Assembly (NCBI GenBank): GCA_938084555.1
Contig: CALKFR010000013.1
Coordinates: 1-64,000, forward strand
DNA length: 64,000 bases
Origin: an uncultured Flavobacteriaceae bacterium
GTDB taxonomy: Bacteria > Bacteroidota > Bacteroidia > Flavobacteriales > Flavobacteriaceae
Direction of reading: 5' to 3'
In this document: one piece after another, positions 24,008-28,601 of the stretch
How the letters are laid out: every line of letters begins with the position of its first letter
How positions within the stretch are numbered: the first letter of the stretch is position 1
The notes under the pieces: model-generated
What the model saw: the letters and a program-made list of their open reading frames with translations, nothing else
Databases searched by the model: none
What the model was told of the DNA's origin: nothing
Program-made: the position numbers and the translations under genes

Positions 24008-24910
24008 ATGAAAGATCAATTTTACAAGTATATAGAGAATTTACAAGATAGTATTACTTCTAAAATAGAGGGAATAGATGGTGTATCAAAATTTAAAGAA
24101 GATATTTGGAAACGAAGTGAAGGAGGAGGAGGAAGAACTCGTGTTATAGAAAATGGTGAAGTTTTTGAAAAAGGGGGTGTTAATATATCAGCTGTTCATG
24201 GTGAATTGCCGGAAGTATTAAGAAGACAATTTAACGTAGATGAAGGTAATTTTTATGCCTGCGGATTAAGTCTTGTCTTACATCCTAAGAATCCGTTTGT
24301 GCCAACAGTTCATGCAAATTGGCGTTATTTTGAAATGTACGATTCAAAGGGTGAAATTGTAACTCAATGGTTTGGTGGAGGGCAAGATTTAACACCTTAT
24401 TATTTGTTCAACACAGATGCAGTCCATTTTCATACAATTTGTAAAAATGTTTGTGATCTTCATAACAAGGAATTTTACCCAATGTTTAAAAAGAACTGTG
24501 ATGAGTATTTTTGGAATACCCACAGAAACGAGGCACGTGGTATAGGAGGTTTGTTTTTTGATTATTTAAAGGAAACAAATGTGTTTTCAATTCAAGACAG
24601 ATTTAATTTTGTAACAGCTGTAGGAAATAGTTTTTTAGACAGTTATGTTCCAATAGTAGAAAAGAGAAAAATTATGACGTATGAAAAATCCCATAGAAGC
24701 TGGCAAGAAATACGAAGAGGACGTTATGTAGAATTTAATTTAGTTCACGATAGGGGTACGTTATTTGGTTTAAAAACTAAGGGTAGAATAGAAAGTATTT
24801 TAATGAGTTTACCGCCAATAGTTCAGTGGAAATATAATTATAGTCCTGATGTAAATTCTGAAGAAGAAAAATTAATTAAAGTTTTAACAAATCCAATAGA
24901 TTGGGTCTAA
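24008..24910 (+). CDS. hemF: Oxygen-dependent coproporphyrinogen III oxidase
   Basis: GGGGRTRVIENGEVFEKGGVNISAVHGELP, WFGGGQDLTPYY, RRGRYVEFNLVHDRGTLFGL. Confidence 0.97.
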   Translation: MKDQFYKYIENLQDSITSKIEGIDGVSKFKEDIWKRSEGGGGRTRVIENGEVFEKGGVNISAVHGELPEVLRRQFNVDEGNFYACGLSLVLHPKNPFVPTVHANWRYFEMYDSKGEIVTQWFGGGQDLTPYYLFNTDAVHFHTICKNVCDLHNKEFYPMFKKNCDEYFWNTHRNEARGIGGLFFDYLKETNVFSIQDRFNFVTAVGNSFLDSYVPIVEKRKIMTYEKSHRSWQEIRRGRYVEFNLVHDRGTLFGLKTKGRIESILMSLPPIVQWKYNYSPDVNSEEEKLIKVLTNPIDWV

Positions 24911-24939: not shown

Positions 24940-27087
24940 ATGAAAAAACATTTATTACTTCTAATTGCTATTTCAATTTCTCTCTCTGTTAGTTCTCAGG
25001 AAATTATTAAAAAAGTAACGTTATTATGGGACACTTCTTATAGTATGATAGACAGAAATCTGGATAATGATTTAAATTATTTGGATGAGTTTTTTTTAAA
25101 AAACACAAATTCAGACGTTACTCTTGTTAAATTTAGTAATGACATTATTTTAAACGAGACTTACAGTATTAAAAATAGTAATTGGTTAGATTTAAAAAAA
25201 GAACTTCAAAACACAACGTATGACGGTTCAACAAACTATAATAAATTAAAAGTTACAGAAACAGATCATGTTTTGTTATTTTCAGATGGATATTCTTTCC
25301 ATAAAAAGTTTCCAAAAATTAAATCTCTTCTTACAATTATCTCCAGTAATAAAGAATATAATTCAGATTTTTTTAATTCAATTACAAAAGACTCCGGAAA
25401 AGAGTTTATTGATTTAAAAACTATTGAAACTAATAAATCTAAAGCCTCAGAATTTAAGACTGTTAAGGGGAGGGTTAGTGATGAAAATGGATACCTTTCA
25501 AATGTTGTTGTTATTTCAAGAGATAACAATTTAAAGACCGTAACAGATAGTTTAGGTAATTTTTCTATTAAGGCACAGATGAGAGGAATTCTAGAATTTA
25601 GATACATAGGAAAAAACACGATTTTATCTAGAGTTTCAGAAAGTGCTGTAAAAAATATCTATATGACTGACGGTAATATGGTTCTTGATGAGTTAGTCCT
25701 TGAAAGTAAGAAAGAAGAAGTAATAGATAATGGGTACGGTAAACTAGATAAAAAAAGATTAGGGTACTCTATTGAGACATTAGATGGAAATAAAATAATA
25801 CCTTCAAATACTGATGTAAAAGATGCTGTAGCAGGTAAATTCGCAGGTATAAAAATAGGAAATAATGATGATTTAAGTCAGTTTGTAGGAAGAGGTAGAT
25901 ACACTACTATTTTAGGAAATCAATACGGTCTTGTAGTTGTTGATGGCTTGGTAATTAAACAAAGTAACTCTTCTAGAGATGCTGGTTTTATTGCTGACAC
26001 AGGTTTTATTGATCCAGCAAATATAGAGAGTGTTACTTATTTAAAAGGTTTAGCAGCGACTAATATATACGGAAGTGATGGTAGTAATGGAGTATTGCTT
26101 ATAAAAACAAAAACAGGAACTTCGAGCTATAAAAAGAAAAAGAAAAGACAATTAGGGAATACCCCAATTTATATAGATGATACAGAAATTAAAGAAGTTG
26201 TTGATAAACCCTACATAAAACAAGTATCTCAAACTAATACTATTGAGGACGCCTATAAAATGTACCTCTCTCAAAGAAAATTATATGGAAAAGATATCAA
26301 TTTCTTTTTTGACATAGCATCTTACTTTAAAAATTGGAATAATCCATATTTAATGAAGCGAGTATTGTCTAACGTTCTAGAAATAAATAAAGAAACAAAT
26401 CTTGAAACATTAAGGATATTGGCTTATAAATATGATCAATATAATATGTTTGATGAATCTATTAAAGCTTATGAACAAATAATCTCCATAAAACCATCAG
26501 AATCTCAGGCCTATAGAAATTTAGCTTTAAGTTATCAACTCAACAAGCAATTTACAAAAGCCCAGGAAGTTCATAATAAAATATACAATAATAAATATAC
26601 TGAGGTCAGTTCATTTTCTGGATTAAAGCAAACCATTAATTCAGAATATAAAAATTTAGTAGCCTTGCACAACTCAACTTTAGTTGCTGCCGATATTCCT
26701 GATTTTTATAAAAAAAATACAGAGTATGATACACGTATAGTGTTCGAATGGAGTTATTTTGATGCCCAATTTGATTTGCAAATTGTAAATCCTCAGCAAA
26801 GATATTATACTTGGTCACATACACAAAATGAGGAGCGTTCTAGAATTATAAAAGAAACCGCTCAAGGTTATGGATTAGAAGAGTTTTTTATCACTAAAAA
26901 AGATAAAGGAGAATGGTTATTTAATTTAACCTATTATGGTAAAAAGACAGGTGATAATTCTATCCCTACTTACCTTAAAATAACAGTTTATAATAATTTT
27001 GGAAGACCTAATCAAACAAAAAAAGTAACTGTTAAAGAGTTGAATGATTTGAATAAAAAAGAAACTATTTTAAAACTCAAAATTTAA
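24940..27087 (+). CDS. Exported multidomain protein: vWA-like + CarboxypepD_reg-like + TonB-plug-like + TPR + DUF2135-like, no beta-barrel
   Basis: Signal peptide; WDTSYSM (DxSxS) and YDGSTNY and LLFSDG; VKGRVSDENGYLSNVVV...TDSLGNFSI; VVVDGLVIKQ...DPANIESVTYLKGLAATNIYGSDGSNGVLLIKTK; TPR helices; C-terminal FEWSYFDAQFDLQIVNPQ...GLEEFFI...GEWLFNLTYYG. Confidence 0.75.
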   Translation: MKKHLLLLIAISISLSVSSQEIIKKVTLLWDTSYSMIDRNLDNDLNYLDEFFLKNTNSDVTLVKFSNDIILNETYSIKNSNWLDLKKELQNTTYDGSTNYNKLKVTETDHVLLFSDGYSFHKKFPKIKSLLTIISSNKEYNSDFFNSITKDSGKEFIDLKTIETNKSKASEFKTVKGRVSDENGYLSNVVVISRDNNLKTVTDSLGNFSIKAQMRGILEFRYIGKNTILSRVSESAVKNIYMTDGNMVLDELVLESKKEEVIDNGYGKLDKKRLGYSIETLDGNKIIPSNTDVKDAVAGKFAGIKIGNNDDLSQFVGRGRYTTILGNQYGLVVVDGLVIKQSNSSRDAGFIADTGFIDPANIESVTYLKGLAATNIYGSDGSNGVLLIKTKTGTSSYKKKKKRQLGNTPIYIDDTEIKEVVDKPYIKQVSQTNTIEDAYKMYLSQRKLYGKDINFFFDIASYFKNWNNPYLMKRVLSNVLEINKETNLETLRILAYKYDQYNMFDESIKAYEQIISIKPSESQAYRNLALSYQLNKQFTKAQEVHNKIYNNKYTEVSSFSGLKQTINSEYKNLVALHNSTLVAADIPDFYKKNTEYDTRIVFEWSYFDAQFDLQIVNPQQRYYTWSHTQNEERSRIIKETAQGYGLEEFFITKKDKGEWLFNLTYYGKKTGDNSIPTYLKITVYNNFGRPNQTKKVTVKELNDLNKKETILKLKI

Positions 27088-27243
27088 TTATTTTAGTGAA
27101 TAATTATCATATTATTAACAAAAGCTTCAATATGGTAAATTATTTATTCAAAATTTAATTAAAATAGAATATTTATTGAATTTAATTTATTTTAAACATC
27201 TTTTTTCAATTCTAATAGTTATTCTTTTATCACTCATTTTTCG

Positions 27244-27251
27244 TATTTTTG
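27244..27251 (+). promoter_or_regulatory. Bacteroidetes-type -7 element upstream of E2 gene
   Basis: TATTTTTG matches TAnnTTTG. Confidence 0.45.
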
Positions 27252-27272
27252 CAATCTCAAAACCAATGTACA

Positions 27273-28583
27273 ATGGCTAAGTTCGAGTTAAAATTACCTA
27301 AGATGGGAGAAAGTGTTGCTGAAGCAACAATTACATCCTGGTTAAAGGAAGTTGGAGATACCGTAGAATTAGATGAAGCAATTGTTGAGATAGCCACAGA
27401 TAAAGTTGACTCTGAAGTACCTAGTGAGGTTGAAGGAACACTTGTTGAAATTTTATTTGAAAAAGATGCTATTGTTGCTGTAGGTCAAACTATAGCTGTT
27501 ATTGAAACTAATGGTGGTGAGGAAACTTCAAATCAATCTTTTGAAGAAAATGAAGAGGTAATTGAACAAGTTGTTCAGTTACAGAAAACCGTTGAATACG
27601 CCTCAGAAATAAAAAATTCACCGATAACTAAGACTTCAGATTCAGGAAAATTCTTTTCACCTTTAGTGAGAAAGATTGCAGAAACCGAAGGTTTGTCTAT
27701 GGAAGAATTAAATACACTTTCAGGCTCAGGAAAAGACGGAAGAGTTACTAAAAATGACATACTTTCTTACATTGAAGATAGAAAAAATTTACAGCCAGAA
27801 AAAGCCATAAAAACTGAAACCATACCATTGGAGACTAGTAATTTTATCAAATCTGTTCCAACTTCGTTTAATGGTGAAGATGAAATTATAGAAATGACTC
27901 GTATGGGTAAATTAGTTTCTAAACATATGGTGGCCTCTGTTCAAACCTCCGCACATGTTCAATCCTTCATTGAAATAGATGTTACTAATATTGTAAAGTG
28001 GAGAGCTAAAGTCAAAGATGCATACTTTACAAGAGAAGGTGAAAAATTAACTTTTACCCCTATCTTAATGCATGCTGTAGCAGCTACAATCAAAAAATTT
28101 CCTATGATAAATATTGCTGTACAAGGTGATACTATTATAAAGAAGAAAAATATTAACCTTGGTATGGCCGCTGCACTGCCTGATGGTAATTTAATAGTAC
28201 CAGTTATTAAAAATGCAGATCAATTAAACCTAGTTGGTATGACTAGGCAAGTAAATGATTTAGCATTAAGGGCAAGAAATAATAAATTAAAACCCGATGA
28301 AATCCAAGACGGAACCTATACAGTAACTAATGTGGGAAGTTTTGGATCTGTAATGGGTACACCAATAATTAATCAACCCCAGGTTGCGATATTAGCTCTT
28401 GGAGCTATTCGTAAAGTTCCAGCAGTCATAGAAACTTCTGAAGGAGATTTTATTGGGATTAGACAAAAGATGTTTGTATCTCATTCTTATGACCATAGAG
28501 TTGTTAATGGAGCATTAGGAGGAATGTTTATCAAGACCTTAAAAGAAACCCTTGAAGCTTGGGATATAAATCAAGAATTTTAA
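27273..28583 (+). CDS. 2-oxo acid dehydrogenase E2 (dihydrolipoamide acyltransferase), single lipoyl domain
   Basis: KFELKLPKMGESVAEATITSWLKEVGD...EIATDKVDSEVPSE lipoyl domain; E3-binding domain; DHRVVNGALGGMF catalytic motif. Confidence 0.92.
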   Translation: MAKFELKLPKMGESVAEATITSWLKEVGDTVELDEAIVEIATDKVDSEVPSEVEGTLVEILFEKDAIVAVGQTIAVIETNGGEETSNQSFEENEEVIEQVVQLQKTVEYASEIKNSPITKTSDSGKFFSPLVRKIAETEGLSMEELNTLSGSGKDGRVTKNDILSYIEDRKNLQPEKAIKTETIPLETSNFIKSVPTSFNGEDEIIEMTRMGKLVSKHMVASVQTSAHVQSFIEIDVTNIVKWRAKVKDAYFTREGEKLTFTPILMHAVAATIKKFPMINIAVQGDTIIKKKNINLGMAAALPDGNLIVPVIKNADQLNLVGMTRQVNDLALRARNNKLKPDEIQDGTYTVTNVGSFGSVMGTPIINQPQVAILALGAIRKVPAVIETSEGDFIGIRQKMFVSHSYDHRVVNGALGGMFIKTLKETLEAWDINQEF

Positions 28584-28601
28584 TAAATAAAATAAAAAAA
28601 A

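Follow-up and report, generated by a model that had tools for sequence, protein, structure and literature searches.

An exported and apparently soluble protein of 715 amino acids, encoded in the window (the whole 64,000-nucleotide stretch of DNA analysed here), joins a vWA domain, a SusC-type NTE and TonB-receptor plug, TPR helices and a DUF2135-like β-sandwich. Sequence comparison and structure prediction together establish these domains and their order, a MIDAS, purifying selection on the gene, descent from a longer protein family and the recurrence of Ton-system modules in one slot of that family. The best explanation, which we hold tentatively and at slightly under even chances, is that this reduced member of a VIT-vWA-TPR-DUF2135 family is a periplasmic adaptor that offers a SusC-like face to TonB.

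Domain anatomy of the 715-amino-acid protein

The open reading frame is intact and begins with ATG (Table 1). In Pfam, the plug exceeded the curated cut-off of PF07715 (E=2.2e-9, residues 275–385), and it also matched a plug HMM made only from SusC proteins (E=2.7e-23). The NTE matched CarbopepD_reg_2 (PF13715, E=2.5e-6, residues 175–253) slightly below cut-off, TPR matches (residues 490–550) were also sub-cut-off, the vWA match was weak (VWA_2, E=0.08) and PF09906 (DUF2135) gave no Pfam match. The vWA and C terminus, weak or absent in Pfam, were yet firm against profiles made from long relatives only (57-sequence set): E=1e-34 for the vWA region (residues 22–167) and 1e-21 for the DUF2135 region (595–714), with 3e-38 for the TPR region (424–586). 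By sequence, homology of the C terminus to DUF2135 is established solely through these long members, whose acidic DTDIDLW motif is degenerate (DAQFDLQ) in the window protein.

Table 1. Positions of the gene, its encoded domains, its neighbours and two long relatives
Feature	Position	Strand	Evidence
Gene of the barrel-less vWA-NTE-plug-TPR-DUF2135-like protein	24940..27087	+	Same-length syntenic orthologues; overall dN/dS 0.16–0.25
Signal peptide, residues 1–20 (...SVSSQ), without lipobox Cys	24940..24999	+	Inspection; AF2 helix 2–15 only
vWA domain, residues 21–172, MIDAS D31/S33/S35/T98/D116	25000..25455	+	Class-A-only HMM, AF2, Foldseek
SusC-type NTE (CarboxypepD_reg_2, PF13715), residues 173–244	25456..25671	+	Pfam, NCBIfam, Foldseek
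TonB-box-like stretch LDELVL, residues 249–254	25684..25701	+	SusC alignment
TonB-receptor plug domain, residues 269–393	25744..26118	+	PF07715, SusC-only plug HMM, Foldseek
Lys-rich disordered linker, residues 394–423	26119..26208	+	AF2 pLDDT 25–41 over most of linker
TPR-type helical domain, residues 424–590	26209..26709	+	Pfam, AF2, Foldseek, class-A-only profile
DUF2135-like C-terminal β-sandwich, residues 595–715	26722..27084	+	Long-member profile E=1e-21; alignment
hemF, upstream neighbour	24008..24910	+	Context only
2-oxo acid dehydrogenase E2 (odhB-like), downstream neighbour	27249..28583	+	Context only
Long relatives with TonB C-terminal domain in slot	L044:4130-7396; L092:1044-4280		

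In the full-length AlphaFold2 model, built on an alignment of 23 relatives, pLDDT was about 80–97 for the vWA (about 80–94), NTE, TPR and C-terminal sandwich, and low (33–72) for the plug. Residues 170–401 were remodelled with SusC relatives in the alignment, which steered the model, although the modelled sequence was the window's own. A plug fold with moderate pLDDT only was produced, and its top Foldseek match was SusC (5fq6; 33% identity over 130 columns, E=1.7e-7). The NTE matched that of SusCdex (9hfj) with a TMt of 0.87 in the full-length model and 0.86 in the model of residues 170–401; the TPR part of the full-length model matched TPRs and its vWA those of integrin β3, ITIH1 and CLCA1. 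Only TPR proteins were found among the best 60 PDB matches to the TPR/C-terminal profile, so no structural relative is named here for the β-sandwich. The vWA was tested for a Rossmann-like fold with a MIDAS (DxSxS...T...D), and both are present. The site is complete (D31-x-S33-x-S35, T98, D116), with D31, S33 and S35 invariant in all aligned sequences, T/S98 kept in nearly all and D116 in most.

A vWA with a MIDAS would also suit an adhesin, secreted or displayed on the cell surface, in the manner of other VIT/vWA proteins; some VIT-vWA relatives elsewhere are sortase targets, and long members match TIGR03788 weakly. However, no lipobox cysteine was seen by inspection of the N terminus, Pfam and NCBIfam found no T9SS sorting domain or sortase signal in the 715-aa protein, and in SusC the NTE and TonB box are turned towards the periplasm, all of which makes an adhesin improbable. 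The signal peptide and SusC-type module together point to the periplasm.

NCBIfam searches gave a match to SusC/RagA proteins (TIGR04056, E=3.6e-29), which scored 101.7 against a cut-off of 368, and to the SusC signature (TIGR04057, E=2.9e-10, residues 362–391). The 322 residues that follow the plug are taken up by the TPR and β-sandwich in place of the 22-strand barrel of SusC/RagA receptors, leaving no room for an outer-membrane barrel and supporting the view that the protein is not a transporter; that it is an adaptor of some kind is, overall, very probable. Profile searches, AlphaFold2 and Foldseek thus agree with the original prediction, which had placed the same five domains in the same order, with boundaries correct to within about 10–20 residues, and had called the protein barrel-less and unlikely to be a transporter. 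Structure prediction recovered both the vWA and the plug fold, the plug with the SusC-guided alignment.

A reduced branch of a VIT-vWA-TPR-DUF2135 family

Full-length relatives of the window type were found at six loci (80–87% and ~49% identity). All six keep the length and domain order, with the architecture whole, and the neighbourhood hemL-x-hemE-...-hemF-[gene]-odhB-like is shared as far as the contigs extend, one or two small genes being uncalled in L004 and L005. A divergent window-type relative, L110, occurs in another genus. Overall dN/dS was 0.16–0.25, and about 0.1–0.3 for most domains and comparisons, indicating that the gene is under purifying selection. The plug value against L001 (0.58) comes from almost no changes because the stretch was recently exchanged. 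Positions ~25500–28600 of the window are mostly 94–100% identical to L001 (one 300-nt bin is at 80%), whereas the flanks are at about 80–92%, a pattern that points to recent homologous exchange with this genus-mate, with a breakpoint inside the 715-aa gene. The source genome is 63% complete.

The NTE-plug match enters the SusC profile and then stops, as it would in a truncated or decaying SusC-type receptor, a pseudogene or a fusion artefact. Against this, several assemblies carry the ORF intact and with the same architecture and synteny, the downstream TPR and β-sandwich are conserved and dN/dS is well under 1; conservation and dN/dS rule this explanation out, and we give it almost no credence.

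The gene follows hemF by 29 nt, close behind it as originally predicted. In seven genus-mates odhB follows hemF with no such gene between, so the locus is a site of insertion or loss and the heme context is probably incidental, the linkage being no functional evidence. A role in heme synthesis, considered on the basis of this linkage, was rejected as unsupported. No conserved partner gene is common to the window type and long members. Promoter-like sites were only at chance level and no + strand terminator-like site was found. The downstream E2 gene probably starts later than the listed TTG, at MAKFELKLPK...

With the TPR/C-terminal part as query, long relatives of 935–1220 aa were found in Flavobacteriales and other Bacteroidota classes, composed of VIT, vWA, linker, slot, TPR and DUF2135. 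Counting matches of every kind at the chosen thresholds, 33 of 298 genomes were positive in the order and 42 of 297 in the phylum; the phylum figure includes weak partial matches. Domain maps of 72 family proteins resolved three classes: A (VIT-vWA-slot-TPR-DUF2135), W, the window type (vWA-NTE-plug-TPR-DUF2135-like), and B (NTE-degenerate plug-TPR-DUF2135-like, 542–629 aa), which has no vWA. The VIT domain (PF08487) was matched at E<1e-35 in all complete long members, and long members matched PF09906; Pfam searches and domain maps found no VIT in the window type. The vWA, TPR and C-terminal sandwich that define the family are found in the window protein in the same order.

Classes W and B form one clade (support 100/100). 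In a tree rooted with distant members as outgroup, this clade lies inside class A, adjoining L044 and L092 (99/97); no single branch sets all the outgroup rows apart, which leaves the deepest splits uncertain. Nesting within class A implies that the VIT domain and linker were lost and, most simply, class B would then have lost the vWA. The window protein can therefore be placed, on sequence grounds, as a reduced branch of a phylum-wide VIT-vWA-[variable slot]-TPR-DUF2135 family of ~1000–1200 aa. The architecture survey suggested by the original prediction yielded the six same-architecture relatives, but this wider family had been missed. The family is apparently undescribed, and no family name was found; in the open-licence literature there was no DUF2135 paper, none on the plug domain with "barrel-less" and nothing relevant on VIT with TonB, and a description elsewhere could exist.

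Class B has features of its own. Four tandem copies occur in one genome (L111, 2029-9331), and the loci L048–L054 share a conserved neighbourhood peculiar to this class, which includes a gene of ~780–820 aa.

Ton-system pieces in the variable slot

The slot of class A lies between the linker and the TPR. In Flavobacteriales, 11 of 31 slots hold an NTE and 11 of 31 a whole or partial plug, and some contain nothing recognised; in many long members the slot has no Ton piece at all, and the core function therefore does without them. The slots of L044 and L092 matched the TonB C-terminal domain (PF03544) at 22.3 and 25.0 bits, respectively, and only L092 exceeds the cut-off of 24.6. The motif [DEN]E[VI][VI][VIT] was found in 17 of 45 class A slots, compared with 0.8 expected from shuffled slots. 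Fifteen of the 17 are SusC-like, and L044 and L092 match only within acidic EEEVVV/EEIIV stretches. Box examples are LDEVVVT in L037 and LNEVVVVGY in L128; a slightly stricter pattern was never matched across 98,790 aa of unrelated ORFs taken from these loci. Six members (L042, L090, L091, L097, L128 and L129) carry a box with no NTE or plug detected, a count that depends on the search threshold, and L128 shows a weak partial plug (2e-4). In the plug tree, those of the window type make up a single group (95/80) and long-member plugs lie with SusC, L110 and L130 being long-branched. Pieces of the Ton system have repeatedly entered the slot, as an NTE, a TonB box, a plug in whole or in part, or a TonB C-terminal domain. 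Two distant long members, L134 and L138, have in their slot a short fragment that resembles the plug of another receptor type (VVR[GA]SR...LVDG...FTGGL).

In the window protein, LDELVL lies between NTE and plug and aligns column for column with LDEVVVT/LDEIVVT of SusC proteins, to whose N termini the NTE-plug module is 33–38% identical. The NTE, TonB box and plug that mark SusC/RagA proteins are thus all present, but the box is imperfect and the module sits after the vWA. Boxes of the window clade read LDELVL, LDEVVL or LDDIVI, and the strict pattern fails in the window, L001, L002, L004, L006 and L055. Among the vWA-less paralogues, most have a degenerate box and plug or none that could be detected. 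The TonB box of Bt1763 (VDEVVV) is required for transport; the SusC NTE is important, its function was called unknown and TonB specificity was suggested (PMC7782687).

A Ton link is favoured by the recurrence of boxes and by the swap for a TonB domain in the closest long relatives, whereas the imperfect window-clade box and the decay in class B advise caution; we think that the window protein may engage TonB, but would not quite bet on it. The boxes that are kept may be remnants of inserts in the course of decay. The main rival, somewhat less probable than our preferred reading, is that the NTE-plug is a domesticated spacer, a stable periplasmic fold taken from SusC genes, with function residing in the vWA, TPR and sandwich and TonB uninvolved. 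SusC-type genes are abundant donors, many long members lack the module or have only fragments of it, in class B it has decayed, and the window's imperfect box also fits. A mere spacer accounts poorly for the box-only long members, for the strong enrichment of boxes over background, for the TonB C-terminal domain that fills this slot in L044 and L092 and for a plug that is whole and constrained in the window clade.

The nearly complete, SusC-like NTE and plug might alternatively act in trans, docking into or competing for SusC-type barrels or partners (for example, SusC NTE partners or BAM) and not TonB. Foldseek matched the NTE fold to chain E of the extended F. johnsoniae BAM complex (9n2d), and the sole match to BamP (NF053692) was the NTE region of a class B paralogue (E=1e-7), at 31.5 bits against a cut-off of 230. 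Both likenesses reflect only a shared NTE fold, however, and no receptor gene adjoins the window-type loci, making action in trans a minor possibility.

Proposed role and comparison with known systems

The adaptor offering a SusC-like face to TonB would have arisen by loss of the VIT domain and post-vWA linker, the middle slot keeping a complete periplasm-facing SusC module without its barrel. The vWA, in a metal-dependent way, and the TPR/β-sandwich may bind other envelope proteins, and the NTE, TonB-box-like stretch and plug would form a face for the TonB C-terminal domain, through which the Ton motor or TonB occupancy could act on a non-transport client. A scaffold or adaptor reusing the plug had been predicted and is still the best reading; the phylum-wide family, the TonB-box-like stretch and the recurrent plug pieces had gone unnoticed. 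That the family and its reduced forms are, across the phylum, barrel-less clients of the Ton motor, presenting a box or carrying a TonB C-terminal domain and letting TonB pull on, or send signals to, a non-transporter, is a broader idea that we consider unlikely. The repeated gain of transporter pieces in this family hints that the TonB motor may act on proteins other than transporters. Bacteroidota have many SusC receptors and several TonBs, which raises the question of what the NTE and the multiple TonBs do; a barrel-less protein that keeps the TonB-facing part, along with slot-swapping relatives, provides a soluble system for studying NTE/plug binding and non-transporter TonB clients.

The window protein shares the NTE, TonB box position and plug of SusC/RagA receptors (TIGR04056, PF07715, PF13715), but lacks their β-barrel and has extra vWA, TPR and DUF2135-like modules. 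Its vWA, TPR and C-terminal sandwich are homologous to those of the long VIT-vWA-TPR-DUF2135 proteins (PF08487, VWA and PF09906), which often carry NTE, plug or TonB box in the same slot; it differs in having no VIT or ~200-aa post-vWA linker, a complete plug and a degenerate DUF2135 acidic motif. vWA-fold proteins were proposed in a 2025 study as force transducers of Tol/Ton-like motors (PMC12204202). They place a vWA fold in a motor setting, a parallel and not evidence for the window protein, and are tethered to the inner membrane, whereas the window protein is soluble with a receptor-like module.

YfbK-type proteins (PF12450; L173, L175 and L178) of the same bacterial family are likewise exported vWA proteins with an NTE, SusC-like TonB box and plug pieces. 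Their vWA belongs to a different family, the module is N-terminal and TPR and DUF2135 are missing, so they represent an independent case, and two different vWA families show barrel-less reuse of plug parts. M56/BlaR1-type peptidases of this bacterial family (L143, L147, L167 and others) also reuse barrel-less plug fragments, in the form of half-plug units at the C terminus, one or two per protein (PLYIL(D/N)G...YG..G.(N/H)GV(I/V)(I/L)IT), but are membrane peptidases without a vWA. Together, the YfbK-type and M56 cases show that these bacteria have reused parts of the plug without a barrel time and again.
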